Of a stretch of 64,000 nucleotides of DNA, positions 328-36,172 are shown piece after piece. The notes beneath the pieces are model-generated. The model had not been told where the DNA came from, ran no database searches, and worked only from the letters and a program-made list of their open reading frames with translations. Each line of letters begins with the position of its first letter. Position 1 is the stretch's first letter. Location of the stretch: positions 38,774,287 through 38,838,286 of the forward strand of contig NC_092326.1 of NCBI RefSeq assembly GCF_036785885.1, read 5' to 3'. The stretch is from Coffea arabica (Eukaryota; Streptophyta; Magnoliopsida; Gentianales; Rubiaceae). The translations under genes and the position numbers were made by a program.

Positions 328-1799
328 GATCCTTGAGGGGTCCCTTTCAGGCAGGTCCCCCTAACCTCTCCCTTAATCTCAGCAGGATAGAATTCTAACA
401 TAGGTTTAGTCTTTTTCCACTGGAGTATATCAGAATCTGCTTCCTCCATCTCTTCATCCCTCAACAAGACTTTTCTCTTACCAGCAATCGAGTGACTTGC
501 TCCATTTTCATTTAACTCTTTCAAAACTCTCCTGCTACTGGTTGGGGACTTCAGTCTTCTGAACATCCTCTTAGCTTGTTTGTCCTTAGCCTCCTGTACC
601 TTTCCAGTCCTCGTAGATATCTGATGGGTCACAAGCGCTCCTACAGGTTCCTCTTTGTCCACTAGTCCTTGATTTTGGTTCTGCATCTCTAACTCTCTAT
701 CCTCCTCCCTCACTTCCACTGCCATTGGGGACTGATTTTCTTCCTCGAACTGGATCACTAGTGGGAGACCAGGCCCTCTCGTTTCTAGGTTCATGATGTC
801 TTCACTACAAACTTGGAATCCTCCCTTGTTTTCCTCAACTGATGGTAAGGCTCCCCTCCCCTGTTCTTCCTTCGTCTTCTCCCTATCCTCCCTCCCTTTC
901 TGCGAGCTATGGCCCTCCTTATTAGATGACAGCAGAGATTCTAGCAGACTTTGATTCAAAAGGCTTCTGCTTCTATCTTGCTCAATCAATTCTCCTTCCT
1001 GGAATCTCCAATATCTTTTGTCACTCGAACCTTCCTTCCTGATAGTTTGTTTCTGGGGTGAGCTCCTAGCATTTCCAGCTCTCAACCAGGGCCCGTACTG
1101 ATGGCCACCCATGCTTCCCCCTGACATTCTCCTATCCTTACAAGACCTCTCACTGTGTCCTACTAACCCACAACTATAGCAAAAATCAAGACACCTTTCA
1201 TACTTAAAAGCTATCCATTTCAAAGCTCCTGCAATCCTAACCACAGTACCCCTGAGCAGGGGTTTAGACAGGTCAACTAACGCTAAAATTTTCAAGTGCC
1301 TGCCCTCTTTCCCTCCATTCTGAGGAATTAGCACCTCTCTTACTTCTTTGAAAACAGCCCCTATCTTGTTTCCTACCTCTTTAGAAAGCCAATGAACTGG
1401 CAAGTTCCAGAGTTGTACCCAGAGGGGCGCAGTCATAAAGGCCCTATAATCCTCTTCTATCCCTTCCTTCCACCTATTTAGGACTAGCAGTTGATTGTCC
1501 ATAACCCAAGGACCACCCTCTATAATTCTTTCCTTATCATCTAGGCTAGGGATGTTGAACTGAAAGATATTTGGGCCAAGTTCCATCACTGTTATATTCC
1601 TAGGGTATCCCCAAGCAGCAGTTACAAAATTTTTTACCCCAGTAAAGTTGACTACTTTCTCACCTATAACTCTTCCTATCAGGCTTTCCTCGCAGGCTCT
1701 AACTCCCTGATGGAGATCTCCCAATTCTAAAGTGGCTCCGAGAAGCTCATTCCCCTCCAGAGGGAATTTTTTTAGGAGCTCAGCCAGGTCTTCATCCAT
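324..1799 (-). CDS. LINE-A ORF1, DUF4283 / CCHC zinc-knuckle protein
   Basis: A 491-residue protein beginning MDEDLAELLKKFPLEG. I chose this ATG over an in-frame one 59 codons upstream because the upstream residues are low-complexity hydrophobic sequence and the chosen start matches that of LINE-B ORF1. Residues of about 35-190 form a DUF4283 domain with the motifs TGVKNFVTAAWGYP and GGPWVMDNQLL. A CX2CX4HX4C knuckle follows at C207, C210, H215 and C220. The rest is charged and low in complexity. ORF1 proteins of this type are thought to bind LINE RNA. The frame has no stop, so this part of LINE-A may be fairly young. Confidence 0.85.
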   Translation of the reverse strand: MDEDLAELLKKFPLEGNELLGATLELGDLHQGVRACEESLIGRVIGEKVVNFTGVKNFVTAAWGYPRNITVMELGPNIFQFNIPSLDDKERIIEGGPWVMDNQLLVLNRWKEGIEEDYRAFMTAPLWVQLWNLPVHWLSKEVGNKIGAVFKEVREVLIPQNGGKEGRHLKILALVDLSKPLLRGTVVRIAGALKWIAFKYERCLDFCYSCGLVGHSERSCKDRRMSGGSMGGHQYGPWLRAGNARSSPQKQTIRKEGSSDKRYWRFQEGELIEQDRSRSLLNQSLLESLLSSNKEGHSSQKGREDREKTKEEQGRGALPSVEENKGGFQVCSEDIMNLETRGPGLPLVIQFEEENQSPMAVEVREEDRELEMQNQNQGLVDKEEPVGALVTHQISTRTGKVQEAKDKQAKRMFRRLKSPTSSRRVLKELNENGASHSIAGKRKVLLRDEEMEEADSDILQWKKTKPMLEFYPAEIKGEVRGTCLKGTPQGS

Positions 1800-2341
1800 C
1801 GATAAAGTCAGATAATTCAGGATAGTATTCCACTTCACAAGCAGGAGGAAAACCAGAGTGTAGGAGGATCGGAACAGAAAAATTGAAACAAAACAAACAA
1901 GGAAAGCTTTTTGGTGTTTAGGTACGTCTACTAACAGAAAAAGATGAGAAAAAAGAAAAATATGAGAATGGCACACAAATATAGTTCTCTAGTCGCACTA
2001 CCTCTTAACATCAGACAGCGGAGGTAAGGACACATAGAATCTCATTATACCTGTCAAACGCATTTCATAGTGTAGTTCCTTCTGCCGCTTGGACTTCTGC
2101 TTTCCATGCAACATTCAACGATTATGTTTGCCGCATTAATTCACCTTTGATTCCAGACAAGAATCGGAAGTGAAGATGTTTCAGAAAAGTGCGGGAGTGT
2201 TGGATTTTGAAAAAGTTTGATTTTGCTGCCTTTCCCACCAACGGGGAAAGTAGCTCCTATCCCAAGAGAGAGCACCTCAAGTTAGAGAGAGGAAACCTCT
2301 ACGTAGAGAGAGGATAAGTAGAAAAGATAAGAGTGGTGTTC

Positions 2342-2957
2342 TACAGGCTAACAACATCCGCTTAGTTGAATCTTCTCAGGTTGAATTGCCAAAAACAATT
2401 TTCTGGAATTAAGCCAAATTGTTGCCTCCCCACATTAAAAACTTGTCAGGGATTCCTCTAATAGGCAAATTTTGAGATTAATGAGCATATTGGTACTTCA
2501 ACAACATCAAGGAGAACAAAGACATAAGCTCATTGCAGCTCAGAAAAAGTACAGTAGCTGCAAGAAAACTAAAGCAGAAGAATGATTTAGTAACAACTCA
2601 GATGAGATTCTAAAATGATAAAGCAGTCTTCCATATAGTTCACGGCTCAGGCAAAAACTATGTCAAATAAATGTAAACGATGAACATATAATTGATGCAA
2701 AAGTTCTGGATATATATATAGTCTTCAAACAACATACCCATTTGTAAACACTTTCTTGTGTTCTATCTACGATGGCAACATCATCAACTTCATAGTAAAA
2801 GCTACCTTCATTCTTGAGAAAACTTCTTATATGCAGCAAGCAAAATGTTGGTGAAACAGTAGGCTAGCATGTAGAACCTGTAGCTAGAAAAATATTATGA
2901 GTAGAGGCAAAGTCTACCGCCTGCAAAATTTTATGATATGCATTTCCTTGTGCCTAT
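2342..2957 (-). pseudogene. Apyrase fragment, second copy of the 30645-31172 / 36236-36329 region
   Basis: Near-identical to the larger apyrase pseudogene. It retains the exon encoding VAIVDRTQESVYKW (2738-2830), its flanking introns, and the distal part of the next exon upstream in the gene (from 2918). The splice acceptor of the 2738-2830 exon is changed: base 2831 is A where the other copy has C, so the intron end reads CAT instead of CAG. The fragment is cut on the left by LINE-A and on the right, inside an exon, by an Athila LTR. It cannot produce an enzyme. Confidence 0.8.
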
Positions 2958-4288
2958 TGATAGGGTGTTAATTGTTAGTAATTTTATTGTTAATTTTTCC
3001 TTTTATTCTTGCCAAATATTATTTTAATTATTAATATTTACTTATATTTGGTATTGGGACTTAATTTCAGGAACAAAGTAGAAAATTACCAAAAAAGAGG
3101 GACTTTTATGGGAAAATAGAGACTTCTAAGGACCTTGGACTCTTGAATTGGTGGGGACCACAAGCTAGTAAAAGGCATTTAGTCATTTGGGCCTTTCAAA
3201 GAAAGCAACGTAGAGAGAGTTGGACCAAGAAGTAATTTGGAGGCTTTGTCCACATGTGTGGGGACCACAGGAAATAGCTTTTAGGCATCTTTCTTTTGGC
3301 TTTTAAGGGAAGACGTACAGAAGCAAAAGGAGATCCTTTTAGACGGCTCTAGTTTAGCTTTTAGGATAGCTTTAGTTTTTCTTTCTTTTCACTAGCCTCT
3401 GACACACGCCAGGTGTTTGACAATATTCCCTAACGGGAAAAACACCATTTATCCCTTGCTTTCTAGTAAAAAACCGCAATACCTTTGCAATCCATTAATT
3501 CATGTGGTGATTTAATTATGCGGCGTGGCTAAGCCTTCCTTTTAGTCAAGGGGACAACTGACGATTTGGTTCGACAATTACTGTGAGATCGAATCTGTTT
3601 TAATTATTTTCTTCATTTATTGGTATTTATATGTTCCTTGATTTTAATTGCTATGGCCTTGTGTATGATTGATTAGTGCGCAATAATTAATTATTCATAT
3701 AGGCTATTTTTGCTAAATAGGGGTAATTGAATCCATAATTGTTCGTTATCTTTATCTCAGTAGCAACTGGCGTAATTGGGTTTATGTCAGGGGAATATAC
3801 GATCTAACTTAAACAAACCCTCGTAGCGTGTTTGTTAGTTAGGATTGGGCCTTTCTAATTATTAATGCAATCTAGAAATTAAATCCTACGGTCGTACCTA
3901 GGGTTGTTTTTGGGTTAGAAAAATAACTAACGGTCGTACCTTAGCTATCGATAAATTAAGGAAATGTTGGTTGTTTATCGCGTGCATGACAATTATAACC
4001 AACCTATTAATAAAAGTTGGAATTATCTGCGAATCAATGATCAGTGCATGAACCATTTCTGAAGTGCACCATTGGCTAGAGTTTTCCCTTAATTATTTCT
4101 TTGAATTAATTACTTTCTGCATTTAATTTGTTTAATTGGCATTTAATCTCAAAACCCCCTATACTTTGAACTCTAGAAGAAACAAACTATCCCCAGTCCC
4201 TGTGGATTCGACCCTACTCACCGCTATATACAAAATCTATATTTTTCTTGAGTAGGTAATTATTATTGCACAGGTTCGGCACCTGTCA
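2958..4288 (+). repeat. 5' LTR of the Athila-family element
   Basis: It starts TGATAGGGTG and ends CACCTGTCA (TG...CA). The first 1.2 kb recurs almost unchanged at 8829-10087. The primer-binding site follows within a few bases. Confidence 0.9.
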
Positions 4289-4854
4289 ATTTTTGGCGCC
4301 GTTGCCGGGGACTGGTGCTTGTTTAATTTGTTTCTTTTTGAGTTCATTTTTTAATTTATTAATGCAATCTAGAAATTAAATCCTACGGTCGTACCTAGGG
4401 TTGTTTTTGGGTTAGAAAAATAGCTAACGGTCGTACCTTAGCTATCGATAAATTAAGGAAATGTTGGTTGTTTATCGCGTGCATGACAATTATAACCAAC
4501 CTATTAATAAAAGTTGGAATTATCTGCGAATCAATGATCAGTGCATGAACCATTTCTGAAGTGCACCATTGGCTAGAGTTTTCCCTTAATTATTTCTTTG
4601 AATTAATTACTTTCTGCATTTAATTTGTTTAATTGGCATTTAATCTCAAAACCCCCTATACTTTGAACTCTAGAAGAAACAAACTATCCCCAGTCCCTGT
4701 GGATTCGACCCTACTCACCGCTATATACAAAATCTATATTTTTCTTGAGTAGGTAATTATTATTGCACAGGTTCGGCACCTGTCAATTTTTGGCGCCGTT
4801 GCCGGGGACTGGTGCTTGTTTAATTTGTTTCTTTTTGAGTTCATTTTTTAATTT
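3861..4854 (+). repeat. Tandem duplication of about 497 bp spanning LTR end and primer-binding site
   Basis: Bases 3861-4357 are repeated at 4358-4854 with very few differences. The unit holds the last 430 bases of the LTR, the primer-binding site and the start of the untranslated leader. The element therefore has two LTR termini and two primer-binding sites in a row. The duplication is absent from the 3' LTR. Confidence 0.9.
4294..4310 (+). promoter_or_regulatory. Primer-binding site (first of two)
   Basis: TGGCGCCGTTGCCGGGG begins five bases after the LTR end. This is the usual primer-binding sequence of Athila-like plant gypsy elements, complementary to a tRNA 3' end ending in CCA. An identical copy lies at 4791-4807 in the tandem duplication. 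Confidence 0.85.
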
Positions 4855-4922
4855 ATTTTTCTCTTATTTTTTTATATAGTTTATGGCTTCTAACACTCCA
4901 TATTTTGGTGATATAATGGATT

Positions 4923-5945
4923 TTGTTTCCGGGGAAGGCGATGAGACTAGTTTTTTTTGCTAAGTTTGCATATTCAGAGGTACTAAACTCTATTAGAGAA
5001 AGGATGGCTGCTGCAATCTGTAAAATTTGTTATGCCAGGGATCATTCAACTGGTATGTGCCCCGAATATCAAGATAATCTGAGTGTCCCACTCAATAATT
5101 ATGGAGATTTTTCACCCTGGTCTCAAACTTGGTATAACCTTAATCCAAACGGGTATGATCAAGGATGGTGGGATAACTCCAGTTATAATTATACAATAGG
5201 GCCAATGAATTTTCAGCAGCCTATGAATTTTCAGCAGTATGAGTCTCAAGAATCATCATCTATGTCAGGTATGTCTCTTGAAGAAATAGCTACTAATACA
5301 TATCAATTCCAACAGGAGACACAAATGAGAAATGGGATGATGAAGGATGCAATGAGTAATCTGGAAGATCAAATGAAACAATTGACATCCAGGATAGAGC
5401 GATTAGTTTCTCACCTTGAAGAATTGCCCTCACAAACCAACATTAGCCTTGAAGAAAATGGGAGTGCAATTTGCTTGACTAGTGATGAGGAGATGCAAGA
5501 GTGTCAAAATGAGAGATCTACAGATGCAGTTGAAAAAGAAGCCGAAAATGAAGAAATGGAACCCCAACCGCAACCCATTCAAGTGAAAGAATCCAGTGAA
5601 GAATCATCAAATGTGGTGACACTACCTCCATTCCCTAACCCGCATTTTCTTAACTCTTACTCTATGATTTCTGTTAATGAGATTGATTTTGTTATACCGG
5701 AAGTTTCTGAGTCTCATGGCAGAAATAAGTTAAGGGTAGCTATGGTCAAATATCTTGAACCGGTGAATGCTCTTGATGGAGGAGTGGATGAAGAATTGCG
5801 ATCAATGCTTGATAATTTGGCGCGCTCAACTAGTCCATGTAAAATCGTAACTCGTGTGCTCAAAGATTACTCCATCTATAAGGGTTACCAGGATCATATT
5901 GAAGATGAAACATTGAAACGAGCCACAAGATTTTATCCCCCGTGA
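4923..5945 (+). CDS. gag-like ORF with zinc knuckle
   Basis: A 340-residue open frame. Near its N-terminus it carries CKICYARDHSTGMC, a CX2CX4HX4C nucleocapsid knuckle (C33, C36, H41, C46). A Gln/Asn/Tyr-rich stretch and a probable coiled coil with acidic sequence (about 110-220) follow. In Athila-type Gag proteins the knuckle lies toward the C-terminus, so this looks like the end of gag joined to sequence that once lay further downstream, with most of gag and all of pol missing. Soon after the stop comes a TTGGGAGGCAACCCAAG stretch at about 5991, which I associate with the pol/env-like spacer of Athila elements. The start codon is uncertain. Confidence 0.6.
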   Translation: MFPGKAMRLVFFAKFAYSEVLNSIRERMAAAICKICYARDHSTGMCPEYQDNLSVPLNNYGDFSPWSQTWYNLNPNGYDQGWWDNSSYNYTIGPMNFQQPMNFQQYESQESSSMSGMSLEEIATNTYQFQQETQMRNGMMKDAMSNLEDQMKQLTSRIERLVSHLEELPSQTNISLEENGSAICLTSDEEMQECQNERSTDAVEKEAENEEMEPQPQPIQVKESSEESSNVVTLPPFPNPHFLNSYSMISVNEIDFVIPEVSESHGRNKLRVAMVKYLEPVNALDGGVDEELRSMLDNLARSTSPCKIVTRVLKDYSIYKGYQDHIEDETLKRATRFYPP

Positions 5946-8296
5946 ACAAGCATAGCATGTCTAGCCAAAGACATTAAAGAAAGGCGCTACTTGGGAGGCA
6001 ACCCAAGACTATTTGTTTCAGTTTTCATGCATTTTTGAAGTTTTAGTTAAATGTTAGTGTCAATTAATAGTTTGATTTTTGGTGGCAGGAAATTAGTAGT
6101 TAGACGTGCCTACGCCAGGTGGTCACGCCTGAGGGAAAGAAATTTTCGTTCAGGATCTGCAAACTCTATAGCAGTTAGACGTGCCCACGCTTGATGGTCA
6201 CGCTAACGGATCGAGAATTTTCGCCGGATGGTCAAAAGACTAGGGAGCGATTAGGCATGCCCAAGCCTAAGCTAGAGATTTTTTGAAAAAAAATTTTTTT
6301 TTAATTTTTTTTAAAAATTTTATTATTACAAAAAAAAAAATCAGCAATTTCCAATTGGGACGATTTACATTAGCGTAAGTTTTTTTTTTTTTTAAAAAAA
6401 ACAATTCCCCTTTTCTCTTTTCTTTTTCTTCTTTTTCTTTTTCTTTCTTTCTTTCTTTGTTTTTTCTTTCTTTCTTTTTCTTTTCTTTCTTTCCTTTTTT
6501 TCCCTTTTCTTCTTCTTCTTCCCCGCTGCCTGGCTTTTTCTTTTTCCTTCTTTTCTTCTTCGGCCGACGCTTCTCCATCGCGTGTCGCCGCCTCCCTCGC
6601 TCACCTCCAACTCGCCGCGCCTCTCTCTTCCCACCGCGACAGCCGCACGCCACCAGCTCCACCTTGCGCCACCCACTACCAGCGCACGGCCGTCCACCAC
6701 CGAACGCCACCCCAGCTTGCGTCCATCGCCACCATCTCCAAGCTCCAGTTCTCCCATCTCTTTCGTATGCCGCTACCACCAACCCGCCGCCAGGAGCTTC
6801 CTCCGCACAACTCATCTAGCTCGCGCGCCTCCACCACCAGCTCACGCAGCCGCCAGATCTCCTCTCTCCACCTCGCCGCTGCAGTCCGCAGCTTCGTCCT
6901 CTCCCACAGCTTGAGGACAGCTCCACCCGCGCACGCGCCTGCCTGCCCGTGTCTTTCCCCCCCCCAACAGCTCTTCTCCAGCTTTGTCCACCAGCCCGCA
7001 GCCCCAGCTCCTCCTGTGTTGCGCGCCGTCTCCTTCCTCCGCACAACCCATCAACGGCCGCTGCTGACCACCAGTCCACACAGCTCACCACCACCTCCAC
7101 GCGGCCAACACGCTCCACGACCCTCGCTCACCAGCCCGCCACCAGCAGCGCAAGCCACCTGTCGAATTTCTTTGACAGGTGGAGGTATTGAATCTTCAAC
7201 CTCGATTAGTATTTTTCTGGTTCTGCTATTGCTGGACTTTGCGCTTGTGTGTCTGGGTTTCTTGTTGGATACAGCAGGTGTTGATGTGGGCATTTTCTAG
7301 GGTAAATTTTGGACAAATTTGGGTTTAATTGCTGCCATATGTGGGGATATTTTCTGATATTTATTGAATTGTTGGCCATTTGATTTAATTCCTCCCTGTC
7401 TATACACCAGTGGTACTGGTTGGGGTGTTTTGAATACATTCATGGATTCTATATGGTTGCCTGTCTGATAGCCAACTAATACCCTTGTGATTTGGTTATT
7501 GTCCGACTTTTGAACTACTGTTACTGGAGTACCATTTTCTTGAGCCATTTGCTAATTTTAGTAGGTGGAATTGGATACTTGACTGCCCAATTGGAGACAG
7601 TTTGCATTTGCTTGTTGAGGGGACCAACCAGGGGCTAACGACTGGGTCCAACTCCGAATGCAAGTTGAGAGACTGGAGACTCGAGTGACCCACATTGACG
7701 TCGACTTGCATAACATGGTGCGGAATTTGGCAGTACAACGCCCGACCCACCCCTGTTTTGACAACTTCAGGGAAGTACCGTTGCCCTTCTCCTTCCTTTT
7801 GCTGTTAGTTTATCACATTGAGGGCAATGTGTGAATTAGGTGTGGGGGGTCAGTTTTGGGTGCTAGTATTTTTATTTTTAGTTTCTAAAGGTTTTTCCTT
7901 TATTTTTAGTTTGATATTTATCTCCTTTTTCGTTTATTTTCTTTTCTTTTTTTTTTCCTAGCGGCCAGTCTTCATATGAATACCAAGTTTGATGCTGGAT
8001 TGTTGTCTCTAATTCTGCTATTGCCAAGTTTATTAATAATAGGTATCGAGTTGATGTGGTTGAGTTCAGGAACATCTCTTTGGTGAATATCAATAATTGC
8101 TTGACTTTTCTAATTTTTAGTTAACTTTTCTAAGCATAGGGAATGATTGTTGGCATTTTTCTTGTGAATTGGTCCAATTATTAATTTTAGTTCTCCATGT
8201 TTGGAAATTTGAGGCTGGCTGCTGTTATTTTTGTGTTATTTTTAATTATTGTGCTATATGGTTATAAATAAGAGTTGACTGTATTCCGCTAGTGAT
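5946..8296 (+). other. Non-coding interior of the Athila-family element
   Basis: No credible gene. The motif AGACGTGCCNACGC followed by GGTCACGC occurs twice (about 6104 and 6178), with a weaker third version near 6250. Poly-A/T and CTTT tracts fill 6280-6540. A C-rich, G-poor stretch at 6560-7150 opens several overlapping frames that are compositional only. Text around 7800-7860, ending in GTGTGGGGGG, matches the minus-strand element near 33920-33950. Confidence 0.6.
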
Positions 8297-8472
8297 TACT
8301 ACTGAATAACCGGGAATCTTCACCTAAAGTGTCGATTTTCGCGTCAAAAGGTAGTAGTTGCTATGAGTGCGTGGTCCCGTAGCGATTGGAGCTGAGTAAC
8401 CGGGCTCCTCCATCTGGCAAATGTTGGAGTTCGCGTCAAAAGGCTCTAAGGGCTATAGACTAAGTCTTTTGT
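8297..8472 (+). other. Tandem structured-RNA motif (two covarying units) in the Athila interior
   Basis: Two similar units, 8297-8356 and 8386-8449. Each has a 7-bp outer stem, the constant strand GARTAACCGGG, an inner hairpin of 4 bp plus 2-nt internal loop plus 3 bp, then the constant strand TTCGCGTCAAAAGG, then the outer stem closes. Unit 1 pairs: TACTACT with GGTAGTA; AATC with GATT; CAC with GTG. Unit 2 pairs: TTGGAGC with GCTCTAA; CTCC with GGAG; CAT with ATG. The stem bases differ between units yet pairing is kept. A short hairpin AGACTAAGTCT follows at about 8457. The same arrangement occurs in sense orientation at 33148-33300 in the other element. Function unknown. Confidence 0.6.
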
Positions 8473-8828
8473 TATTCAAAAAAAAAAAGGGAAAAAGAAG
8501 TGAAGTAAAGATTGTGTTAGTATGTGAATAAGTCAGCTTGCCGGTTTGTGATCTTAATGTCGAGATTTTGGTTAATAGCTGGACCGTTTGCTGATAAATG
8601 TAAGCAATCATTCCTTTTTCTTAGATTAGTTTGCTTTAAATTGGAGGAGTTGGTAGTTTAGATGCTAACCGGAGTGATTTTTCTTGGATCTTGACTTGTG
8701 TCGCTTGATATATGATTTTCTTGGTGTCTTGGCAATACGGTAGTTGGAGTAACAGCCATGGTCAAATTTTGGTGTTCAATTGTTGTTCTCATGCTTGAGG
8801 GCAAGCATGATTTAAGTATGGGGGGAAT

Positions 8829-10087
8829 TGATAGGGTGTTAATTGTTAGTAATTTTATTGTTAATTTCCCCTTTTATTCTTGCCAAATATTGTTTTAATT
8901 ATTAATATTTACTTATATTTGGTATTGGGACTTAATTTCAAGAACAAAGCAGAAAATTACCAAAAAAGAGGGACTTTTATGGGAAAATAGAGACTTCTAA
9001 GGACCTTGGACTCTTGAATTGGTGGGGACCACAAGCTAGTGAAAGGCATTTAGTCATTTGGGCCTTTCAAAGAAAGCAACGTAGAGAGAGTTGGACCAAG
9101 AAGTAATTTGGAGGCTTTGTCCACATGTGTGGGGACCACAGGAAATAGCTTTTAGGCTTCTTTCTTTTGGCGTTTTAAGGGAAGACGTACAGAAGCAAAA
9201 GGAGATCCTTTTAGACGGCTCTAGTTTAGCTTTTAGGATAGCTTTAGTTTTTCTTTCTTTTCACTAGCCTCTGACACACGCTTGGTGTTTGACAATATTC
9301 CCTAACGGGAAAAACACCATTTATCCCTTGCTTTCTAGTAAAAAATCGCAATGCCTTTGCAATCCATTAATTCATGTGGTGATTTAATTATGCGGCATGG
9401 CTAAGCCTTCCTTCTAGTCAAGGGGACAACTGACGATTTGGTTCGACAATTATTGTGAGATCGAATCTGTTTTAATTATTTTCTTCATTTATTGGTATTT
9501 ATATGTTCCTTGATTTTAATTGCTATGGCCTTGTGTATGATTGATTAGTGCGCAATAATTAATTATTCATATAGGCTATTTTTGCTAAATAGGGGTAATT
9601 GAATCCGTAATTGTTCGTTATCTCTATCTCAGTAGCAACTGGCGTAATTGGGTTTATGTCAGGGGAATATACGATCTAATTTAAACAAACCCTCGTAGCG
9701 TGTTTGTTAGTTAGGATTGGGCCTTTCTAATTATTAATGCAATCTAGAAATTAAATCCTACGGTCGTACCTAGGGTTGTTTTTGGGTTAGAAAAATAGCT
9801 AACGGTCGTACCTTAACTATCGATAAATTAAGGAAAGGTTAGTTGTTTATCGCGTGCATGACAACTATAACCAACCTATTAATAAAAGTTGGAATTATCT
9901 GCGAATCAATGATCAGTGCATGAACCATTTCTGAAGTGTACCCTTGGCTAGAGTTTTCCCTTAATTATTTCTTTGAATTAATTACTTTCTGCATTTAATT
10001 TGTTTAATTGGCATTTAATCTCAAAACCCCCTATACTTTGAAGTCTAGAAGAAACGAACTATCCCCAGTCCCTGTGGATTCGACCCA
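8829..10087 (+). repeat. 3' LTR of the Athila-family element, truncated
   Basis: It starts TGATAGGGTG after a G-rich polypurine stretch (GTATGGGGGGAAT). It follows the 5' LTR closely until GGATTCGACCC, then stops about 100 bases short of the expected CA end. The adjoining AT-rich DNA is unrelated. Confidence 0.88.
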
Positions 10088-12549: not shown

Positions 12550-13663
12550 CATATTATTTTAGTTATCTTCCTTTATGCCTTCTTCCTCCCTCACTCAACT
12601 CTCTGCAGCCCTTTGGGCAAATGCGAATGGAGAAGATTGTGGAGTGCAGAACCGCGGTGGAGGGGACATAGAATAGAAGTGGGTTACAGTCAGTCAAATT
12701 TGACTTGGCATTCCTTGCCAAATGTACTTATTACATATTACACCCTTAAGTTCTAAAATATTTGTCATCTATTTCACTCTAAAATATTCCAATATATTTG
12801 TTATGCCATACAAGTTAAAGTCATTTTTAATTTCTATTTCCAATGTTGTCCATGTCTCTATTTATGCACATTTTATGTTAAAATTCAAAATTCAAAATTT
12901 GGAGAATCAAACTGAAAAGAAAAATACAAATATCATAATTAAAGTATTATTATTAAAAAGTTGGATTCTCGAAGAACGATAAACATATTGGGACGATAGA
13001 AGGAGTAATTATGCACTTGGCAAGATTTCATTAGCTATTGAGTAACTTATGAATTGTTCATAAATTGTTCAATAACTAGAGTAGATCTTATGGTTAAAAT
13101 TCACCAACGCAGTTTTTTTGTGAAGGGGGAACGGGACAGGATGGAGAATCTACCTTGCAACTTACTGCTGAAGTACTTCTTTGCAATTTCACCTCCATAT
13201 GGTTGTGCTGAACTTGTTAATTTCTATTTGAAAGATAGAAAAAGTTAAAGATCATAAAAATTTGAATAGTATAGACAATTTTCCACTATGAATTCTCCAA
13301 AAGTGTTTATTTTCCATATCCACAAATTTTACGCATATGTATATCCTTTCATTATCACTTTATGACCTTGAAGTACTTCATGTAGGCAGAACGAATTGCA
13401 ATCCACTTCTATACAATCCAAAATGGATTGATGAACTACATCGAAATGGAGGATGCCCATCATAATTAAACTAATTATGGACGCTTATAATATCCAAGTA
13501 ATGAAAATCTAATAGATAAAAGGGTCCATTATTATTATTTAACCCTTCTATGATTTTGTATTCTACCACATTATCCCGCAATTGTTTAACTATTTTTTCT
13601 GGCCTCAATTGTTTTACTATATTCACCTAACACCCTCTATATTTTTATGGTATAATTTTAAAA

Positions 13664-14785
13664 GGGAAAATCGTCCAAAACGTCCCTCACATTTTGTAAA
13701 ATAACTTTTTTCGTCCCTCACTTTTAAAAGTGTAATTTTATATCCCTTACATATTCACATCGGACAAATTTAGTCCCTAACTAGGTTTTCGGTCATTTTT
13801 TGGCCGGAATCCATCTTGTGTAAGGCGCGCACATGATCATTTTTTAAGGGTAAATTTGTCAAATTATATTTTACGTAATCTCATCTATAGTCCTCCACAT
13901 TTTATAAAATAAATTTGTTCTTCCCTCATATTTTATAAAATGATTTTTTTCATCCCTCACATTTCACAAAATGAATTTCTCCATCCCTCACATTTCAAAA
14001 ACTGAAATTTTCATTTCTCACTAATTATGTGTATGAATACATTTTTTTAAACACACACACATATATATATATATATGTCTATTTGATTTTGCTTAATAAT
14101 AATAGTATAAACACATATATGTAATTGGACCCAACTTATGGGCTATCTTCTCTTTTTGTATGATTATGACTAATATTTACCAATAGAATCTTAATTTGCA
14201 TATTCTTATTGTATTTTGACCGAAAATAGCTTTATTGGCCAACTTGACAATGAATGCAAGATTATTTACTAGCTAATACCAAATGAAATCAAATGATCAC
14301 GTATAATATATGGTATTCGTATTATTAAGTGAAATCAAATAGACACGTACATATATTTATGCTATTCGTATTATTAAGCAAAATCAAATAGACATATACT
14401 TGTGTTTAAACAAAATGTATTCACACATATTTTTTTTAGGGTTTCCCTCACTTACATAATTAGTGAGGGATGGAAATATTCATTTTGTGAAATGTGAGGG
14501 ATGAAAAAATCATTTTATAAAATGTGAGGGACGAAAAAATTTGTTTTATAAAATGTGGAGGACTATAGATCAGATTATGTAAAATATAATTTGACAAATT
14601 TACCTTTCAAAAATGATCACGTGCAAGGCACGTGATGGATTCCGGCCAAAAAATGATCGAAAACCTAGTTAGGGATTAAATTTGACCGATGTGAATATGT
14701 AAGGGATATAAAATTACACTTTTAAAAGTGAGGGACGAAAAAAGTCATTTTACAAAATGTGAAGGACGTTTTGGACGATTTTCCC
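13664..14785. mobile_element. Mutator-like element with long terminal inverted repeats
   Basis: The left end GGGAAAATCGTCCAAAACGT is mirrored at the right end by ACGTTTTGGACGATTTTCCC. The inverted arms run about 360-390 bases each (to about 14060 and from about 14430), leaving an AT-rich centre without an ORF. A perfect 9-bp direct repeat, ATTTTAAAA, flanks it at 13655-13663 and 14786-14794. A 9-bp target duplication is characteristic of Mutator-like transposons. The arms contain repeated CCCTCACATTTNNNAAAATG motifs. Non-autonomous; transcripts could fold into a long hairpin. Confidence 0.9.
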
Positions 14786-14794
14786 ATTTTAAAA

Positions 14795-21857: not shown

Positions 21858-24617
21858 TCAATCAGAAAGATCTTTCACATCCCACCGTCCACCATTCTGA
21901 GCATCATAAGAACGTATTAATGGCACATGACGTACAAGATGATAAAGACTGCCACCATTTTTCTCGAGCATGGAGACAAAATTTTTCGGCATATCATACA
22001 AATGAATCTCCTTGAGTTGGCTGAGTTCATCTATACCTACTGGAATCTGCCTTAACCGACCGCATCGCCTTATGATCAGCTTTTGTAGACAAGGCAATGA
22101 ATTGCGTTCCATTATGACCATTTTCAGCTGCCGAAGTAGCTCTAACTCCAGTATCTCGAGCTTCTGAAATTTGCCAGCATTGAAATCCAATTGCTCCCCA
22201 TTGTAGGCGTCAAGCAGCTGGAGTTCTAGTAAATTAGGAAGATCTTGAAGGGTATTAATGGGATTGCTGAACTGCTGATCCAGCCGAGACCACTTCAAAC
22301 GAAGCCTTACCAGATCATGAAGTTTGGAAATCCAGATAGGCATCCTCTCCAGTCTTCCATTCAAATACAAACGCTGGAGTCGAGGAGGATGTGAAATTTT
22401 TTGCATGTCTAAAACTTCCGCCTCATTTTCAGCTGCCACATTCAAAGAATGCAAATTTGGCAGCATTTGAATGGTCTCAGACAAGATCCTTCCATCTTCT
22501 TTGCGCAAACCCATGATTCCCAGCCTTCTTAGTTCTCTGAGGCCTCGCATTGCAACAATGATTTTGTGATTTTTATTGACTTGCACAAACAGTAGCTTGC
22601 GAAGATTGGCCGACCACGTGATCTCTCCTGCGACCTCAAATCCTTTAATTGTGTTAAATGCCACATAATCTTCATTGTCATATCTGTAAACAAGTAAGTA
22701 ACGAAGCTTAGAAAGATGGCATATTTCTTTTGGCAGCGTTCTGACTAATGTTTGTTTGAGGTCCAAGGTTTCAAGGTGCTTAAGCTTTCCTATTGATTTC
22801 GGAATGCTTCTGATTCCTGTATTCCTCAAACACAAGTACCTCAACAACAATAGTTCTTCAATGTCTGCAGGAAACATGTCCAAGTTTGCACCCTCCAGAT
22901 GCAATTCCCTCAACATCTTTAAGCTTGAATAGCCAATTGGAATGGAGTGCTGGCATGGTGCTGATCGGCCAAACTTTAACAAAGCGCGAGCACGAAGATT
23001 TGGGCACAGCTGGCCTAGATTACCTTTATGAATCGATATTCGCCTGACCCTCTCCTTACTGATGTCAAACGTACCTTGATCCGGATAAACTTCACAAAAG
23101 TTTTCATCTTGAAGCTGTGAGAGAACAATCTCATGAATAATATTTTGAACATGACAAGTTCTTGGTCTCCCATCGATGTCCATTTGCCACACCTGAACCA
23201 AGTTTCTTTGAATGAGCTCGTTCAGGTATTCTTCCCCCAAATCTTCGAGTTCTTTTCCATTGTTCCCTTCTGTGATGAAGTCTTCTGCTATCCATAACCG
23301 TATTAGCTCTGTGCGCTGGATGGGGTGATTAGGGGGAAAAGTATTCATCAACAGAAAACAGTTTTTAAGATGGTAAGGTAAGTCATCATAACTAAGAATC
23401 AACACTTTTGCAATATTTGCAAGCCGGCCATGGCTTGTCAGTTCTGATGCAAGACTATCACGCAATTTTTTCCATTCAGGTTCCCTTTCCCCCTTAGTTG
23501 ACAAAAGGTGACCAATTTCAGTGATTGCCAATGGTAGCCCTTCACATTTTCCTAGAATTTCATTGGACAGTGTAGCTAAAGCTGGAGGGCATATACGAGA
23601 TCCTGGAAAGGCGATTCTGTGAATGAGTTCCTTAGCCTTTTCTAGAGATAGATGCTGAATGGGATGGACATCAACGGATCCATCTTTCAGTGAATAGGCT
23701 ATATCCCCTCTTCGCGTAGTGATGATTATTCTACTCCTATTCCTTCTTGGCAATGCTAACATAATAGATCTCCAAACATCATCAGCCCACAGATCATCGA
23801 GGACGATTACATACCTCTTATCCAGCAAATACTCCCTAATGAGGTTGATGTAGTGTTCCGAGCTTTGCTGCTGGGGAGCTGGGGCCGTTTCCGCCCTGGA
23901 GCTGCATCTGCATAGTTGATCTAACATGTTCCGCAAGATCTCCAATTTCTTCTTGGACTTTGAAACACTGATCCATGCGGAGCAACCGAAGTCTTGTTTT
24001 ACTGCCTCGAATACTTGCTTGGCAAGAGTAGTCTTGCCAGATCCACCCATGCCCACAACAAACATGACCTTGTGCTCATCCACCATATCCAGTGCCCACG
24101 CCATCAGCATGTCCCTATCTTCCTCGAAGCCCACGACGTCAGCATCTGCAAGGAACAAAGGAGCAATCCTTGGATGAAGATGTGAGTAAACACGGTTTGT
24201 AGTTGGACTTGGTGTTAAGGCAGCATGGGACGAATTTGCTGGTAGTGGTAAGTATCTTTCTCTACCCTTGTTGATTTCCTCGAGAGTTGATTTGATATCA
24301 TTTATCTGATCGGCAATTGACCGGTATGCCCGCCGCCTGGTCACCGAAAATGCCCTGCCATTTTCTGCCTTGTGATGGTCAAAAAGGTCAAGAATGTCGA
24401 TGATGTCATAAGCTGCATCTTGAACCTTTCGAACCCAATTCAGAATTTGTTGATCTTGGACCGCTCTTTGATGAGCTTCACTCAGAAATGCTGTTATAGT
24501 GCCCAGTTCACTTCTCAAAGTCCTGATCCCGGTATCAACTTTCTTTGGCAACTGCAATTCTCCCGTTAGAAAAGCATCAAGCTTTGCGAGAGCAAATTGC
24601 ACACAAGGGTCTGTCAT
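21858..24617 (-). CDS. CC-NBS-LRR (CNL) disease-resistance protein, RPM1-like
   Basis: An intronless 919-residue protein starting MTDPCVQFALAKLDAF. An in-frame ATG 30 codons upstream is rejected because a TATA box (24679-24684) lies between it and the chosen start. Domains: Rx-type coiled coil (about 1-130); NB-ARC with P-loop GMGGSGKTTLAK (K195), kinase-2 YVIVLDDLW (about 269-277), RNBS-B SRIIITTR, GLPL as CEGLPLAI (about 358-365) and RNBS-D LKNCFLLMNTFP; then leucine-rich repeats from about 540 to the end. The MHD position reads VQN (TCHVQNIIHEIV). Such proteins are cytosolic or membrane-associated immune receptors that use ATP/ADP exchange as a switch. All nucleotide-binding motifs are intact and no frame break is seen, so the gene is probably functional. 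Its ligand cannot be told. Confidence 0.92.
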   Translation of the reverse strand: MTDPCVQFALAKLDAFLTGELQLPKKVDTGIRTLRSELGTITAFLSEAHQRAVQDQQILNWVRKVQDAAYDIIDILDLFDHHKAENGRAFSVTRRRAYRSIADQINDIKSTLEEINKGRERYLPLPANSSHAALTPSPTTNRVYSHLHPRIAPLFLADADVVGFEEDRDMLMAWALDMVDEHKVMFVVGMGGSGKTTLAKQVFEAVKQDFGCSAWISVSKSKKKLEILRNMLDQLCRCSSRAETAPAPQQQSSEHYINLIREYLLDKRYVIVLDDLWADDVWRSIMLALPRRNRSRIIITTRRGDIAYSLKDGSVDVHPIQHLSLEKAKELIHRIAFPGSRICPPALATLSNEILGKCEGLPLAITEIGHLLSTKGEREPEWKKLRDSLASELTSHGRLANIAKVLILSYDDLPYHLKNCFLLMNTFPPNHPIQRTELIRLWIAEDFITEGNNGKELEDLGEEYLNELIQRNLVQVWQMDIDGRPRTCHVQNIIHEIVLSQLQDENFCEVYPDQGTFDISKERVRRISIHKGNLGQLCPNLRARALLKFGRSAPCQHSIPIGYSSLKMLRELHLEGANLDMFPADIEELLLLRYLCLRNTGIRSIPKSIGKLKHLETLDLKQTLVRTLPKEICHLSKLRYLLVYRYDNEDYVAFNTIKGFEVAGEITWSANLRKLLFVQVNKNHKIIVAMRGLRELRRLGIMGLRKEDGRILSETIQMLPNLHSLNVAAENEAEVLDMQKISHPPRLQRLYLNGRLERMPIWISKLHDLVRLRLKWSRLDQQFSNPINTLQDLPNLLELQLLDAYNGEQLDFNAGKFQKLEILELELLRQLKMVIMERNSLPCLQKLIIRRCGRLRQIPVGIDELSQLKEIHLYDMPKNFVSMLEKNGGSLYHLVRHVPLIRSYDAQNGGRWDVKDLSD

Positions 24618-24678
24618 GATTTTTCTTTTGCTAGATGAATATGAGTTGATATGAAAATTGCAAAGAATCTTTACTTCA

Positions 24679-24684
24679 TTTATA
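24679..24684 (-). promoter_or_regulatory. TATA box of the CNL gene
   Basis: Sense-strand CCCTATAAATG, with TATAAA about 62 bases upstream of the ATG at 24617. Transcription would start near 24650, downstream of the upstream in-frame ATG, which supports the chosen start. Confidence 0.6.
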
Positions 24685-24707
24685 GGGTTTTCAGCCCCGG
24701 CCGGCAA

Positions 24708-29326: not shown

Positions 29327-31172
29327 CAATTACATAATATTTTTCTCCTCCATATCTGTAAGTTCCTGGGCGAATTAAGAGCGAATGAGGTATGTTCAAT
29401 GAGATTATGAGACAAAAACCCATTGGCTGACATGCTTTACACTTCAATTAGTGCAGACAAACAGATAAATATGAAACTAATGTTCCATATGTTCATTATA
29501 GTTTGCTAGTCAGCATGGGAGCTAATATGGTTTTCCTATTGACCTGATGATGCACAAAAAGGCATATCTACACAAAGAAAGGAGGAAACACAGAAAAATA
29601 CCGTAGTGCTCACTACAAACTAGAATTCAGGGCTCAAGTATTCCTAACCATGAAAGCCTTCTAAAACACATGGATTGCTAGTGTTATTGAAGAGCTTGAG
29701 AATTTCGGCTCGAACCGAGAGTATGCCATACTTCTCACAACTGTCAATGTGTTGAAATATCACGAAAAGCATTCAATATTTACAACGGGAAGAAGAAAAC
29801 AGGAAAAACATCATGAAACATAAGAGGGATACACCTGCAAAATAGGAGGTCAGTTTCACCAAAATAGACTCAGAGGAGAATGGGAGTTGAAACAATTATA
29901 TGGTCGATGAGGGGAAGACATGTCGCAAAATGCAGATCATGTTTTATCACCTTTTGGTGTAGAGATGATATCTTCTTCCATTTAGATATTTCTCCAGCAC
30001 ATCTACATTGTCTCCCACTGATGTTCTTGGTGCATTTAAGGCATTTGTGTTTGACATAGCATAAACCATCTGGACAGCCTCTTCTCCAAGATCAATCACT
30101 CCAACTGAACTTGAACAGTCCTTGCCCAAATTTCCTAACAGATAATTTGTGGTAATCTGCACAAAAGAATAGGATATAATATGAAAACCGGAGGCTGGAG
30201 TAAGCCTCTGAATGTTGATTGATTAATCTATTGTGTTCTAATACGTATCCCTATCTACAAGGCATTACATATGATATATTAGAGATAGCTTCTAGGATCA
30301 CCGACTGAACCTCCACAAGCCACAACTCCCAGAGGATGCACTTTAAAATCCCATAACCTCATATATCATTTGAATTTTAACTCGTGTAGAGAACTGGATG
30401 ATGCAAAGTGTTTCCGTTATTGATCCGTTTTCCTTCATTTGTTTTATTCTATATATATTGATCATATGGCCATGTATGTTACAATGAATTTTTTGAAGTT
30501 ATTCCTTCATGAATTTTTAATTTACTTGAAGAAAACCAATATTCGGCTAATGAAAGGGCAAGTGATCCCTCTTTAGGCAGATGTAGCACAGTGGTGTTTT
30601 CATGTTTTGCAGCTGCATATTTTTCACCAAAGCATTCCAAAAACCACAGGCTAACAATATCCGCTTAGTTGAATCTTCTCAGGTTGAATTGCCAAAAACA
30701 ATTTTCTGGAATTAAGTCAAATTGTTGCCTCCCCACATTAAAAACTTGTCAGGGATTCCTCTAATAGGCAAATTTTGAGATTAATGAGCATATTGGTACT
30801 TCAACAACATCAAGGAGAACAAAGACATAAGCTCATTGCAGCACAGAAAAAATACAGTGGCTGCAAGAAAACTAAAGCAGAAGAATGATTTAGTAACAAC
30901 TCAGATGAGATTCTAAAATGATAAAGCAGTCTTCCATATAGTTCACGGCTCAGGCAAAAACTATGTCAAATAAATGTAAACGATGAACATATAATTGATG
31001 CAAAAGTTCTGGATATATAGTCTTCAAACAACATACCCATTTGTAAACACTTTCTTGTGTTCTATCTACGATGGCAACATCATCAACTTCATAGTAAAAG
31101 CTACCTTCATTCTTGAGAAAACTTCTTATCTGCAGCAAGCAAAATGTTGGTGAAACAGCAGGCTAACATGTA

Positions 31173-32750
31173 TGACAGGTCGTCAGCCTGTGCAATAATA
31201 ATAATAAATATAGAACCTAGATACCACTAAAAGCAGTCAATAATCAATCCTAGGTACTGGAGCAGGGACTCTAGGTGTGCAATGAGTTACTTGATTCACC
31301 CTGTTCCCGAAGAGTTTGCTTAACCCGATATACCAGAATTAATTAATAGACAAAAATTACTAAATAGTAGACAGTGGCAAGTAGGGTCGTCTCCTCAGGG
31401 ACTGGAGATATCTGTCTCTTTTTAAAGTCCAATTGATAAGGGGGGATTTCACCGGAATGAAACTAAAAATAATTAAACAATTTAATTAAAAATAAATAAA
31501 TCACTAGCACAAGTAAAACAGGAATTAAATCAAGAATAAATAAATTCTAGCCAAGGATACAACTACTCAGGCACAGTCCAATCATCCGATCATTGATGCA
31601 AGAGAGGTTCACTTAATGTATTAATAGGCTAGTTATAGTCTGACGACCAATTTTCCTTAAATTATAGATGACCAAGGTACGACCATTAATCACCTCTAAC
31701 CAGAAAAGTACTCCTAGGTACGACCGTAGGAATTAATTTTCCAATTGCATTAATAACTAGAAAAACCTAGCCCTAACCAATAACACGCTACGAGGGTTAT
31801 TTAAATTAGATTGCACGTTCCCCTAATGTGTAAACACACCAGTTGCCACTAACATTAATCAATCAAACAATTACGGATTTAATTGACTAAATTGGCACGA
31901 GATTAATAAATCACATTGAACATCGGGCCCTTGACATCCAATTAATAAAATAATCCCATGAAAATTCAAGCAGATAACGTGCAAATATTAATAAATAGAG
32001 GAACACGTGAAAACTAATTAGATCTCACAGATTTTCGGGACTGCGCCGTCAAGTTGACCCTTGACTAGATGGAAGATTTAACCACGCCGCATAATTAAAT
32101 CACCACACGAATTAATGGATTGCAAAGGCATAGCGTTTTCTATTAAGAAGCAAGGAATAAAAGGTGTTTTTCCCGTTGGAGAATTTTGTGGAACACCTGA
32201 CGTGTGTCAGAGGCCAGTCAAAAGAAGGAAAAACTAAACTAAAGACTAGGCTAAGAAACTAAAACTAAAAGCTGGCCGTCCGTCTTCGTACGTTAGCTCC
32301 CTATTTAAAGCCAAAGGAAAGATATCCAGTGGTCCCCACCAATTGGCCACAAGCTGCCCCATTTCTTCTTAGTTTCCTTAGGCTTTGTACGTTGCTTTTC
32401 CTTTAAGAACCAAAGGACCAAAGCCCTTTTCCTTTCCTCCGTGGCCCCCACCGAAGTCAAAGGCCCAAGCCTTCAAGTTCTCTCTGCCAAAGTCTCCGGT
32501 TGTAATCCTCTTGGTCAACAAGAATAAAGGGATGGGAGTCCAGTTCTTTTCAGCACTGTGGCCCTGGCCTGTGACTCGCTTGAAGACTCAATTTTCTCCA
32601 GAAAATCCCTCATGTTTGGTAGTTTTCCGTTCTATCCCTGAAATAAAGGCCACAAACCAAATATAAGTAGATATCTGCAATTAACACAATATTTATCAGG
32701 GATGAAAGGGGAAATTAATAATAAAATTACTAACAAATTATACCCTATCA
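31173..32750 (-). repeat. 3' LTR of the minus-strand Athila-family element
   Basis: Sense orientation starts TGATAGGGTATAATTTG at 32750, directly after a polypurine run TGTGGGGGGAAT, and ends GACGACCTGTCA at 31173. Shared text with the 2958 LTR includes AATTCCTACGGTCGTACCTAGG-like sequence. Plus-strand open frames here are not genes. Confidence 0.85.
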
Positions 32751-33130
32751 ATTCCCCCCACACCTAAACCATGCTTGCCCTCAAGCATAAGAAAAGTGGA
32801 CAGACCCCAAAAAGTTGACAGTGGTCATCACTCTAATCTACCACATTGCCAAGAGATTCAAGAGAAAATCATATATCGGGCACTAGTAGTTAAAATCCGA
32901 GAAACATCCCCCCAGTTAGCCTCTACCGCAAACTCCTTCAATTTCCAAATTAACTAGTCTAAGGAAAAGGAATGACACACAGCATTTATCAGCTAATGGT
33001 CCAAATATTCACACAAGTCCCCATATGGAGTCCATAAACCAGCAAGCTTCCCTATTATGTATTCTCTCTTTTTTTTCCTTTTTTTTGTCTTTTTTTTTTT
33101 AAAGCACCTAATAATATTTGACACACGAAG

Positions 33131-33300
33131 ACTTAGTCTCTAGCCGCCGGAACCTTTTGACGCGAACTCCAACATTTTTAGATGAAGGAGCCCGGTTACT
33201 CAGCTCCTACCGCTATGCAACCACGTACTCATATTAAGTACCACCTTTTGACGCGAGAATCGACACTTTTAGGTGCAGATTCCCGGTTACTCGGTAGTAG
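33131..33300 (-). other. Tandem structured-RNA motif, second occurrence
   Basis: In sense (minus) orientation two units appear in the same order as at 8297-8449. Unit 1 (33300-33241): TACTACC pairs with GGTGGTA; AATC with GATT; CAC with GTG. Unit 2 (33207-33148): GGAGC pairs with GTTCC (one wobble); CTCC with GGAG; CAT with ATG. The strands GAGTAACCGGG and TCGCGTCAAAAGG are unchanged, and the AGACTAAGTCT hairpin follows. It lies about 400-550 bases before the LTR, as in the other element. Confidence 0.6.
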
Positions 33301-34167
33301 CCAATAGAGGAGTACAGTCAAGCTTATTCACAGCTAATCAAAGCAGAAACGCAAAATAACAGCACTAACAACTAAACACAGGGGCAGCTCGCCTCATTAT
33401 TGCCAAACATGGAGAACTGGAGTCAATATTGGATCAGTTCACATTAAAATGCCAACAGTCATTCCCAATGCCTAGAAAAGTTAACAAAGAACTCGAAAGA
33501 GTCAAACAGTTCAAAATTCACCAAGGAGATATTCAGGACCCAACCACACTAACCCGATACATTTTGTATTTTAAAAACTTGGCAAAAGTAGACTTGGAGT
33601 CAATAAGTCCACATCTCAATTTTAGCATTCACATGAAAGGTAAGCACCAAGAAGAAAGAACGGAAAATAAGCAACTAGAAATGAAACTACGAAAAACTAC
33701 TAAAACTAAAAACTCACTTTTTTTTTGACTTTTTTTTTTCTTTTTTCTTTTTTGTAACATTAACCAACAAGATTGAAAGAGAATGAACGAAAGAAAATAA
33801 AGCGAAAAAAAGCTAAAAACTAAAACCCAAAACTAAAAACTTAAAAACACTAAAAACTACTAAAATGGAAAGCTGAAAACTGAAAACTACTAAAAACATG
33901 CACACTAGCATAACTTTAGATCCCCCCCACACCTATAGGACACATTGTCCTCAATATGACAAATAAGAACCAAAAGTGAAGCAAAAGTGAGAGGGGAATC
34001 AGCCAAACTTCCCTGAAATCGGGTCATAGCGGAGGGCGAGGTGGAAACGGAGGTGCATAGCCTGTATGCATCAGAAACTGCACCAAATTCTGTGCTATGC
34101 CGGCGACATTGGCGTCGACGTTGGTCATCCGGGCCTGCAAATCCTGAACCTGCTCCCGGAGTTGCTG

Positions 34168-35307: not shown

Positions 35308-36172
35308 GTCCCCCAACAGTAAGTTCAAGGCAACCGAAAATCTAACAGGTATAGAAAGCAGCAATAACAAAGCGAAAACCTCCCAGTAGTAACCCAGCCA
35401 ATAGCAAACAAAAGGGTTCCAGCAAGTAATCAACAAGCAATTCAGAAATAACTCAACTAAAACCTCAAGAGAAACCCCAGCGAGTTATCCAGCAATTCAA
35501 GCAATATCCCCAAGCAACGTGATGTTCACAAAGTCATCTCCAAATCGAACAAATAATCAGAGCATTGCAACACATTTAAAATCTCAATAAACGGCTCCAG
35601 TTGGCCAAGAAAAATTGCTAACTTATATTCAGCAATAGGAGTGCAGCAAGGGGACAGTGACAACGCAATAAACACAGCTACTCAGACAGTCAAACCAATG
35701 TAGTATTGTAGCTCACCCAGATTTCCAACAAGTGGCTTTAGATGGCCAATTAAATGCACAATTGCACCCAACCCAAAAGAATTAGCAAGTCCAAGCAAAA
35801 TAATCCAACCAGTACCACTGGTGGAAAATCACTAATTGAGAAAGTAAACTCTACTCGTCAACAATATCAACTATGGAACGACCCAGGCAGTACCAATGAG
35901 TATTAAGAAATTGGGCGGCAACGGCGAATTACCTCCACCGTAGATGGTAGCCAGACGAAATGAGACAGTGGTGGGTGCCAGGTGTGCCAGAATCGCGTGA
36001 GGAGTTTCGGCGGTGGCCGTGAGTGAGCAACGGCTGCTCGTTGGTGGCGGGTGAAGTGGGTGAAGCGGATGTGAGGCAGAGGTAGATCAGCAGCGGCGAG
36101 CGAAGACAGAGGTGCTGCTGGCGGCGCGAGGCAGGACGCCGACGGTGCGCGCGACAGTGGGGGCTTCAGCAG

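Follow-up and report, generated by a model that had tools for sequence, protein, structure and literature searches.

Positions 8297 to 8472 of a 64,000-nucleotide stretch of Coffea arabica DNA (the window) carry two tandem RNA hairpins, and this locus raises the question of what larger RNA they belong to, whether their pairing is under selection and what they might do for the retrotransposon in which they lie. An earlier note, made from the sequence alone, had placed them in the 3' interior of an Athila-family element (element 1, forward strand) and had found the same two units in the same order in a second element (element 2, reverse strand). We report that the tandem hairpins are best modelled as the apex of a rod of approximately 780 nt, which would occupy the greater part of the noncoding linker that separates two polypurine tracts (PPTs); the interval given in the note does hold the units, but the feature reaches far past both of its bounds. 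Specifically, the folding and comparative data suggest that the sense RNA very probably forms a rod with an apex forking into two hairpins, each with a GAGUA/CAAAA loop, and that this fold is constrained in the lineages carrying it.

The main landmarks of the two elements are as follows.
2956 to 4857, forward strand: 5' LTR of element 1, with a tandem duplication of about 497 bp
8829 to 10086, forward strand: 3' LTR of element 1, from LTR comparison
34168 to 35436, reverse strand: extra ORF of element 2 (ATHILA ORF-1 family, Pfam PF03078), upstream of PPT1

Judged by their sequence features (ORF-1, the order RT-RNase H-integrase and an extra PPT), the elements can be classed as Athila-type Ty3/gypsy retrotransposons. 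The PF03078 match in element 2 scored 33.5 bits (cut-off 20.2), and an Athila ORF-1 extra ORF is reported for 16% of Athila elements in the relevant part of PMC6317226. No PF03078 match was present in the frames of element 1 that were scanned, and what links element 1 to element 2 is the similarity of their LTRs (about 74%) and of their linkers. The duplicated segment of the element 1 5' LTR (3852-4857, approximately 497 bp, 99.4% identical) is absent from the 3' LTR, the LTR pair being otherwise about 97.9% identical. No 5' LTR of element 2 (31172-36230) is recognisable within the window, and on either side the element borders on parts of the repeat at 2343-2961 that share approximately 17 bases, an arrangement unlike that of an ordinary LTR-element insertion. 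The window also contains a CC-NB-ARC-LRR resistance-gene-like ORF of 949 aa (21858-24707, reverse strand) and a LINE whose two ORFs are both long and open (43122-48685, reverse strand).

Relatives were sought in the window's own genome (1.198 Gb, 131 contigs) and two copy families were found. There were 2437 and 2942 first-look candidates; 40 were scored and 30 loci fetched per search. Family 1 comprised 24 distinct rows including element 1, after four of 29 loci with incomplete linkers (L016, L025, L026 and L038) and duplicates had been dropped, and family 2 comprised 22 including element 2, after removal of six of 30 loci (L058, L059, L063, L064, L065 and L067) and duplicates. One family 2 copy, L075, which lies in a tandem array, has an open stretch of 1444 codons with RT, RNase H and integrase (scanned as three pieces). 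Six family 1 copies had no ORF longer than 381 aa across the 8.8 kb upstream of the linker, and the interior of element 1, from LTR to LTR, measures only about 4 kb, so that family 1 seems to be non-autonomous. Tandem copies were located on contigs C22 (≈53.05-53.07 Mb), C11 (≈62.13 Mb), C130 (≈0.18-0.20 Mb) and C12 (≈59.69 Mb). Their constant spacings (5699, 5876, about 9423 and about 8938 bases) suggest that whole elements are arrayed head to tail.

The features of the apex are listed below.
8281 to 8370, forward strand: apex hairpin I (unit 1), from its own fold and ensemble pairs common to both elements
8281-8286 with 8365-8370, forward strand: closing helix of hairpin I, with standard pairs in 275 of the 276 cells given by 46 copies
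8304 to 8314, forward strand: 5' constant strand of unit 1 (internal-loop strand and ACCGGG), from pattern counts and copies
8339 to 8351, forward strand: 3' constant strand of unit 1, TCGCGTCAAAAGG (with the bulged C and the CAAAA loop strand), from pattern counts and copies
8372 to 8462, forward strand: apex hairpin II (unit 2), from its own fold and ensemble pairs common to both elements
8372-8376 with 8458-8462 and 8380-8383 with 8452-8455, forward strand: closing helices of hairpin II, with standard pairs in all 230 cells and in 182 of 184, respectively
8394 to 8404, forward strand: 5' constant strand of unit 2, from pattern counts and copies
8431 to 8443, forward strand: 3' constant strand of unit 2, from pattern counts and copies
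8457 to 8467, forward strand: AGACTAAGTCT, the third hairpin of the earlier note, whose GACTA alternatively closes hairpin II
33225 to 33315, reverse strand: apex hairpin I of element 2, from its own fold and common ensemble pairs
33134 to 33223, reverse strand: apex hairpin II of element 2, from its own fold and common ensemble pairs

Both constant strands occur exactly four times in the window, in the four units where the earlier note had seen them. With up to two mismatches TCGCGTCAAAAGG still had four matches against 0.73 expected (four being reached by 0 of 100 shuffles); for the 5' strand, GARTAACCGGG, the corresponding numbers were 12 and 13.3, so that here the four exact copies alone stand out. 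The described hairpin is also the own fold of all four units, with z values between -3.4 and -5.2; for every unit, 0 of 200 shuffles went as low. In the fold, the outer stem of every unit leads to an internal loop of 5 x 5 (GARUA opposite CAAAA) and then to a constant helix in which ACCGGG faces UUCGCGU and a single C is bulged; an inner stem and a short upper stem complete the hairpin. The structure proposed in the note (21 pairs, four units, two per element) is paired in 97.6% of the 84 cells, against a shuffled mean of 84.2, the observed level being reached by 0 of 500 shuffles; when the structure was slid along the four units as a control, the paired cells dropped to 32-43%. Eight of the 21 pairs were changed on both sides, a count reached by 101 of 500 shuffles, and both the covariation score of the four units and the number of doubly changed cells were reached by 0 of 500.

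The two-sided stem changes on which the note had relied hold between unit 1 and unit 2 but not, for the outer stem and the GGAGC stem, between the elements. TACTACT/GGTAGTA against TACTACC/GGTGGTA and the differences in the GGAGC stem are one-sided and of the wobble type, the unit stems of elements 1 and 2 differ mostly on one side, and 8292/8361 is the sole two-sided change found at the apex between the two elements. The third hairpin competes with a pairing of its GACTA with TGGTC in the helix 8372-8376/8458-8462, which is standard in every cell of the 46 copies. The GAATAA of unit 1 in the window is a rare variant; GAGUA is found in 88 of 92 units. The purine-rich internal loop could stack as G.A, A.A, G.A, U-A and A.C, with a groove like those of protein sites. 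Between the elements the apex is 85% identical, which places it ninth among the 829 windows of that comparison; the linker averages 71%.

Folding of the whole linkers extended the structure to both sides of the apex, with the following parts.
8000 to 8228, forward strand: left arm of the rod (helices common to elements 1 and 2), from the joint fold, ensembles and copies
8528 to 8755, forward strand: right arm of the rod, pairing with 8000-8228, from the joint fold, ensembles and copies
32815 to 33622, reverse strand: linker of element 2, folded as an equivalent giant rod, from its own fold and shared pairs

When the two linkers were folded jointly, most of the left half paired with most of the right half, with the units at the tip. 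Taken singly, the arms were no more structured than their shuffles, of which 6 and 5 out of 60 were as low, but both arms together were; since the arms pair jointly and element 2 has the same design, the feature of the note is the tip of the predicted ≈780-nt rod. The linker of element 1, folded over 7985-8770, had a sense minimum free energy (MFE) of -273.0 (dinucleotide z -11.9) against -144.7 (z -4.4) for the antisense strand, and for element 2 the values were -276 (z -8.1) and -170 (z -3.1). Among 128 stretches of the same length sampled over the window, both strands included, the one covering the element 1 linker in sense ranked first (z -10.2), and ranks 2 and 3 fell to an inverted repeat in the DNA at about 14 kb, once for each strand. 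This repeat (13656-14794) is MITE-like, with arms 92% identical, internal repeats of approximately 31 bp and z values of -9.0 and -8.0 by strand. The linker, with a sense fold far stronger than the antisense one, is unlike a DNA foldback or MITE-like repeat.

At aligned columns, the ensembles of elements 1 and 2 have 173 pairs in common, and of these 112 bridge more than 250 columns, against 56 with none long-range for the 3' LTR, while the antisense linker still shared 88, of which 50 were long-range. Column shuffles do not preserve dinucleotides, and by that measure the control, the 3' LTR, appeared structured as well (z -9.1, sense); we therefore relied on dinucleotide z values and shared pairs. 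The former were -3.5 and -4.7 for the LTRs and -11.1 and -8.8 for the linkers (nine shuffles each, pooled sd).

The further copies provide data on whether this fold is maintained. Exactly two units were found in 46 of 46 distinct copies (pattern allowing one substitution per constant piece), and over the 92 units the internal-loop strands were GAGUA in 88 and CAAAA in 88. The inner unit pairs were standard in 89-92 of 92, with exchanges between AU, CG and GU, between AU and UA, and between UA and CG. Folds made separately for the two families (277 and 260 pairs) had 173 pairs that were identical, and agreement to within one column extended to 212 of the 277; the MFE was lower in sense than in antisense for 46 of 46 copies. 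In family 1 the constant strands were less variable than the arms (0.021 against 0.059), a difference that random runs matched in 363 of 10000 draws.

For the arms, the fold of one copy was applied to the others and broken pairs were counted against a null of relocated substitutions. In family 1 (23 copies) 127 arm-to-arm pairs were broken against 238.9 (sd 18.8; 0 of 200), and in family 2 (21 copies) 101 against 203.6 (sd 17.1; 0 of 200), counts that are not to be read as probabilities because the copies are related and not independent, and that quicker change at unpaired sites alone would also reduce. Across families, using real copies only, the numbers were 26.1 against 46.0 and, in the reverse direction, 19.5 against 40.2, and the count was under the null mean for 36 of 36 copy pairs in each direction (36 of 528 copy pairs were used). 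Outside the arms there was a weak effect in family 1 (56 broken against 76.8; 11 of 200), and in family 2 pairs were no better kept than in the null (76 against 74.9). Compensatory double changes in the arms were not clearly enriched, neither between elements 1 and 2 (9 against 5.6 and 6 against 5.6 expected) nor across families (7.6 against 5.4 and 4.2 against 6.1); between element 2 and family 1 seven double changes kept the pair and six broke it.

Hence the evidence for constraint on arm pairing consists mostly of conserved pairs and changes that keep a wobble, not of textbook covariation; the textbook signal is seen in the tandem units. In its simple form, decay at the neutral rate, which the earlier note had set against its own reading, is not what these copies display, with about half of the expected arm-pair breaks in the 23 and 21 copies. 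The note's proposal of selection at the RNA level is supported for the sense strand by the unit covariation, the sense-only fold and the kept pairs in more copies.

The rod is bounded on both sides by PPTs, one soon after the last ORF and the other at the 3' LTR in both elements of the window.
7836 to 7849, forward strand: PPT1 (extra) of element 1, with the hairpin CATTGAGGGCAATG just upstream (7816-7829)
8813 to 8827, forward strand: PPT2 (terminal) of element 1, with the hairpin CATGCTTGAGGGCAAGCATG upstream (8790-8809)
33923 to 33936, reverse strand: PPT1 of element 2
32754 to 32767, reverse strand: PPT2 of element 2

By pattern, PPT1 was found in 23 of 29 family 1 and 28 of 30 family 2 loci; for PPT2 the respective counts were 27 of 29 and 24 of 30. 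The distance between them is 961-1020 bases in family 1 and 1012-1187 in family 2 (copies with both found). PPT1 and PPT2 are close copies with a TTG-AGGG-CAA hairpin ahead of each. These hairpins (7816-7849, 8790-8827 and, on the reverse strand, 33957-33923) have an AGGG/AGGA loop and a TTG-AGGG-CAA core with stems that differ between PPT1 and PPT2 (CATTG/CAATG and CATGCTTG/CAAGCATG), they precede most PPTs of the fetched copies, and possibly represent a conserved plus-strand priming structure. Extra PPTs in Athila4 and Calypso are cited (Wright and Voytas 2002) in PMC2829016.

The earlier note had recognised no ribozyme or retroelement RNA motif in the units, in keeping with the searches of Rfam 15, which gave no match at gathering scores in the whole window including the arms and none for 8250-8520 at E values up to 10. 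Hammerhead retrozymes were considered, and no hammerhead family match was present anywhere in the window. In a collection of viral contigs the strict motif pattern had no match, and protein scans of these contigs with the extra ORF and with an RT/RNase H/integrase piece as queries gave no relatives. A looser pattern returned seven viral stretches, four of them without a match to the unit model (E ≤10) and L002-L004 with at most 16.9 bits; true units score 88-95 bits. The single match in a genome contig collection lies within a long bacterial reading frame (20.7 bits) and is due to chance. With no relatives in these outside collections, all relatives come from the window's own genome. Titles and abstract beginnings in the open-licence literature described no such structure, and a giant forked rod between two PPTs of a plant element appears to be new in design while its kind, a structured cis-acting retroelement RNA, is known.

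What might the rod do? It lies after the last ORF (≈0.1-0.4 kb past it), before the 3' LTR and between the PPTs. Constant loops between changing stems, their tandem arrangement at an exposed tip, the position after the ORFs and the presence in both families together read as a cis signal recognised by protein, and occurrence both in a family with pol and in one seemingly without it is as expected of a signal in cis served by proteins in trans. We suggest that the rod is a putative cis-acting element for RNP assembly on the genomic RNA, acting in export and/or particle selection, a reading for which we see about even chances. The two identical loops would serve an RNA-binding protein, either the element's own or one of the host, as paired docking sites that the rod keeps apart and exposed; they would mark the full-length element RNA for nuclear export and/or selection into particles, the signal being needed in cis and the proteins supplied in trans.

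Retroelements must move unspliced RNA out of the nucleus (as outlined in PMC10309623), the known export elements RRE and CTE are structured stems with internal loops (according to PMC7551171), and the leader of a plant pararetrovirus, 482-608 nt long, recruits TREX (as summarised in PMC12786077); we therefore place export or selection as first choice, with packaging alone next. Export of plant LTR-element RNA is described as unstudied, and the NXF1 route of the CTE as absent in plants, in the relevant text of PMC12786077, so that a CTE-like mode would need another receptor. For Ty3, the known signals for packaging and transposition lie mainly at the two ends of the RNA (as stated in PMC4974528), which fits this reading but does not single out export.

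A platform for Gag binding that serves packaging or dimerisation only, with no role in export, is unlikely but deserves serious weight: the rod is kept in a seemingly non-autonomous family, which must at least use foreign Gag, and nt 429-4979 of Ty3 are dispensable in cis, hence the signals at both ends, although the Ty1 packaging signals are known near the 5' end (both as given in PMC4974528), and no palindromic kissing loop is evident in the sequence of the two apices. It is improbable that the rod acts in reverse transcription, by pausing or guiding the enzyme or by spacing two plus-strand starts. The close similarity of PPT1 and PPT2, the hairpin before each, their distance ranges and the extra PPTs of Athila4 and Calypso cited in PMC2829016 would agree with it; however, spacing as such would need no constant loops, which suggest recognition by a factor, and PPT1 was missed by the pattern in six of 29 family 1 loci. 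Shielding or compaction of a long 3' UTR against decay, or an aid to translation, is quite improbable even though the rod starts ≈0.1-0.4 kb past the last ORF and fills the 3' UTR, and an RNA stability element in Rous sarcoma virus counters NMD (according to PMC10309623), since compaction alone does not need two identical constant loops.

We consider it very improbable that the linker is an inverted repeat in decaying DNA, or a small-RNA hairpin, in which RNA structure plays no part. Plants are known to produce small RNAs from long imperfect duplexes, a 58-nt arm pair is 72% complementary at the DNA level and the antisense linker is also more stable than its own shuffles, but the true inverted repeat at 13656-14794 folds equally on both strands, which the linker does not, and linker pairs are kept beyond the null. 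A self-cleaving or catalytic RNA of an undescribed class is barely credible: constant unpaired bases between variable stems also typify small ribozymes, yet Rfam gave no match, cleavage near the 3' end would cut the genomic RNA, and two tandem copies would need explaining.

As a cis-acting element for export and/or particle selection, and as a defined RNA domain kept in elements seemingly without pol, the rod would give a handle on the fate of plant retrotransposon RNA (export, choice for particles, shielding) and on the spread of non-autonomous families. Elements of the rod-bearing type are abundant in the host genome, judging from the 2437 and 2942 first-look candidates (40 of each scored). 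Moreover, a linker usually treated as featureless noncoding DNA becomes a structural RNA family open to modelling and to searches of further plant genomes. More tentatively, and with some doubt, the Athila linker rod might be the first described transport or selection element for the genomic RNA of a plant LTR retrotransposon, a giant forked RNA whose two identical loops would recruit a plant export adaptor or an element protein, shared in trans by autonomous and non-autonomous families.

Among known systems, the RNA transport elements of IAP and musD resemble the proposed role of the rod as cis-acting export elements of LTR retrotransposons; they are animal elements and the likeness is drawn from reference titles alone. 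The IAP transport element is reportedly essential for mobility, and another element of the IAP/musD type is said to need long-range interactions, in both cases by the title of a cited paper. The CTE lies near the 3' end before the LTR, a position resembling that of the rod. The CTE of MPMV/SRV-1 is, like the rod, a structured retroelement RNA, a stem-loop with two internal loops, but it is a single stem of 150-175 nt (both as described in PMC7551171), whereas the rod is ≈780 nt long with two tandem hairpins that have one such loop each, and does not take the CTE form of one 150-175 nt stem-loop with two internal loops. Moreover, the CTE binds NXF1 directly (PMC7551171, same account), which plants are said not to use (in the corresponding text of PMC12786077). 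The HIV-1 RRE shares with the rod a long stem ending in branched stem-loops. Protein binding to the RRE occurs via a purine-rich internal loop. The RRE is a 234-nt segment inside the env coding region (as described in PMC7551171), whereas the rod is noncoding and ≈780 nt long. In Sireviruses, as in the Athila linker, noncoding motifs are conserved and additional PPTs lie close to the 3' LTR, and the terminal PPT of Sireviruses is flanked by an inverted repeat; they are Ty1/copia elements with short DNA palindromes, and the relevant text of PMC2829016 describes no RNA rod. Finally, the cauliflower mosaic virus leader (482-608 nt) is, like the rod, a large structured RNA of a plant reverse-transcribing element; it recruits TREX components and sits at the 5' end (as summarised in PMC12786077), whereas the rod sits at the 3' end.
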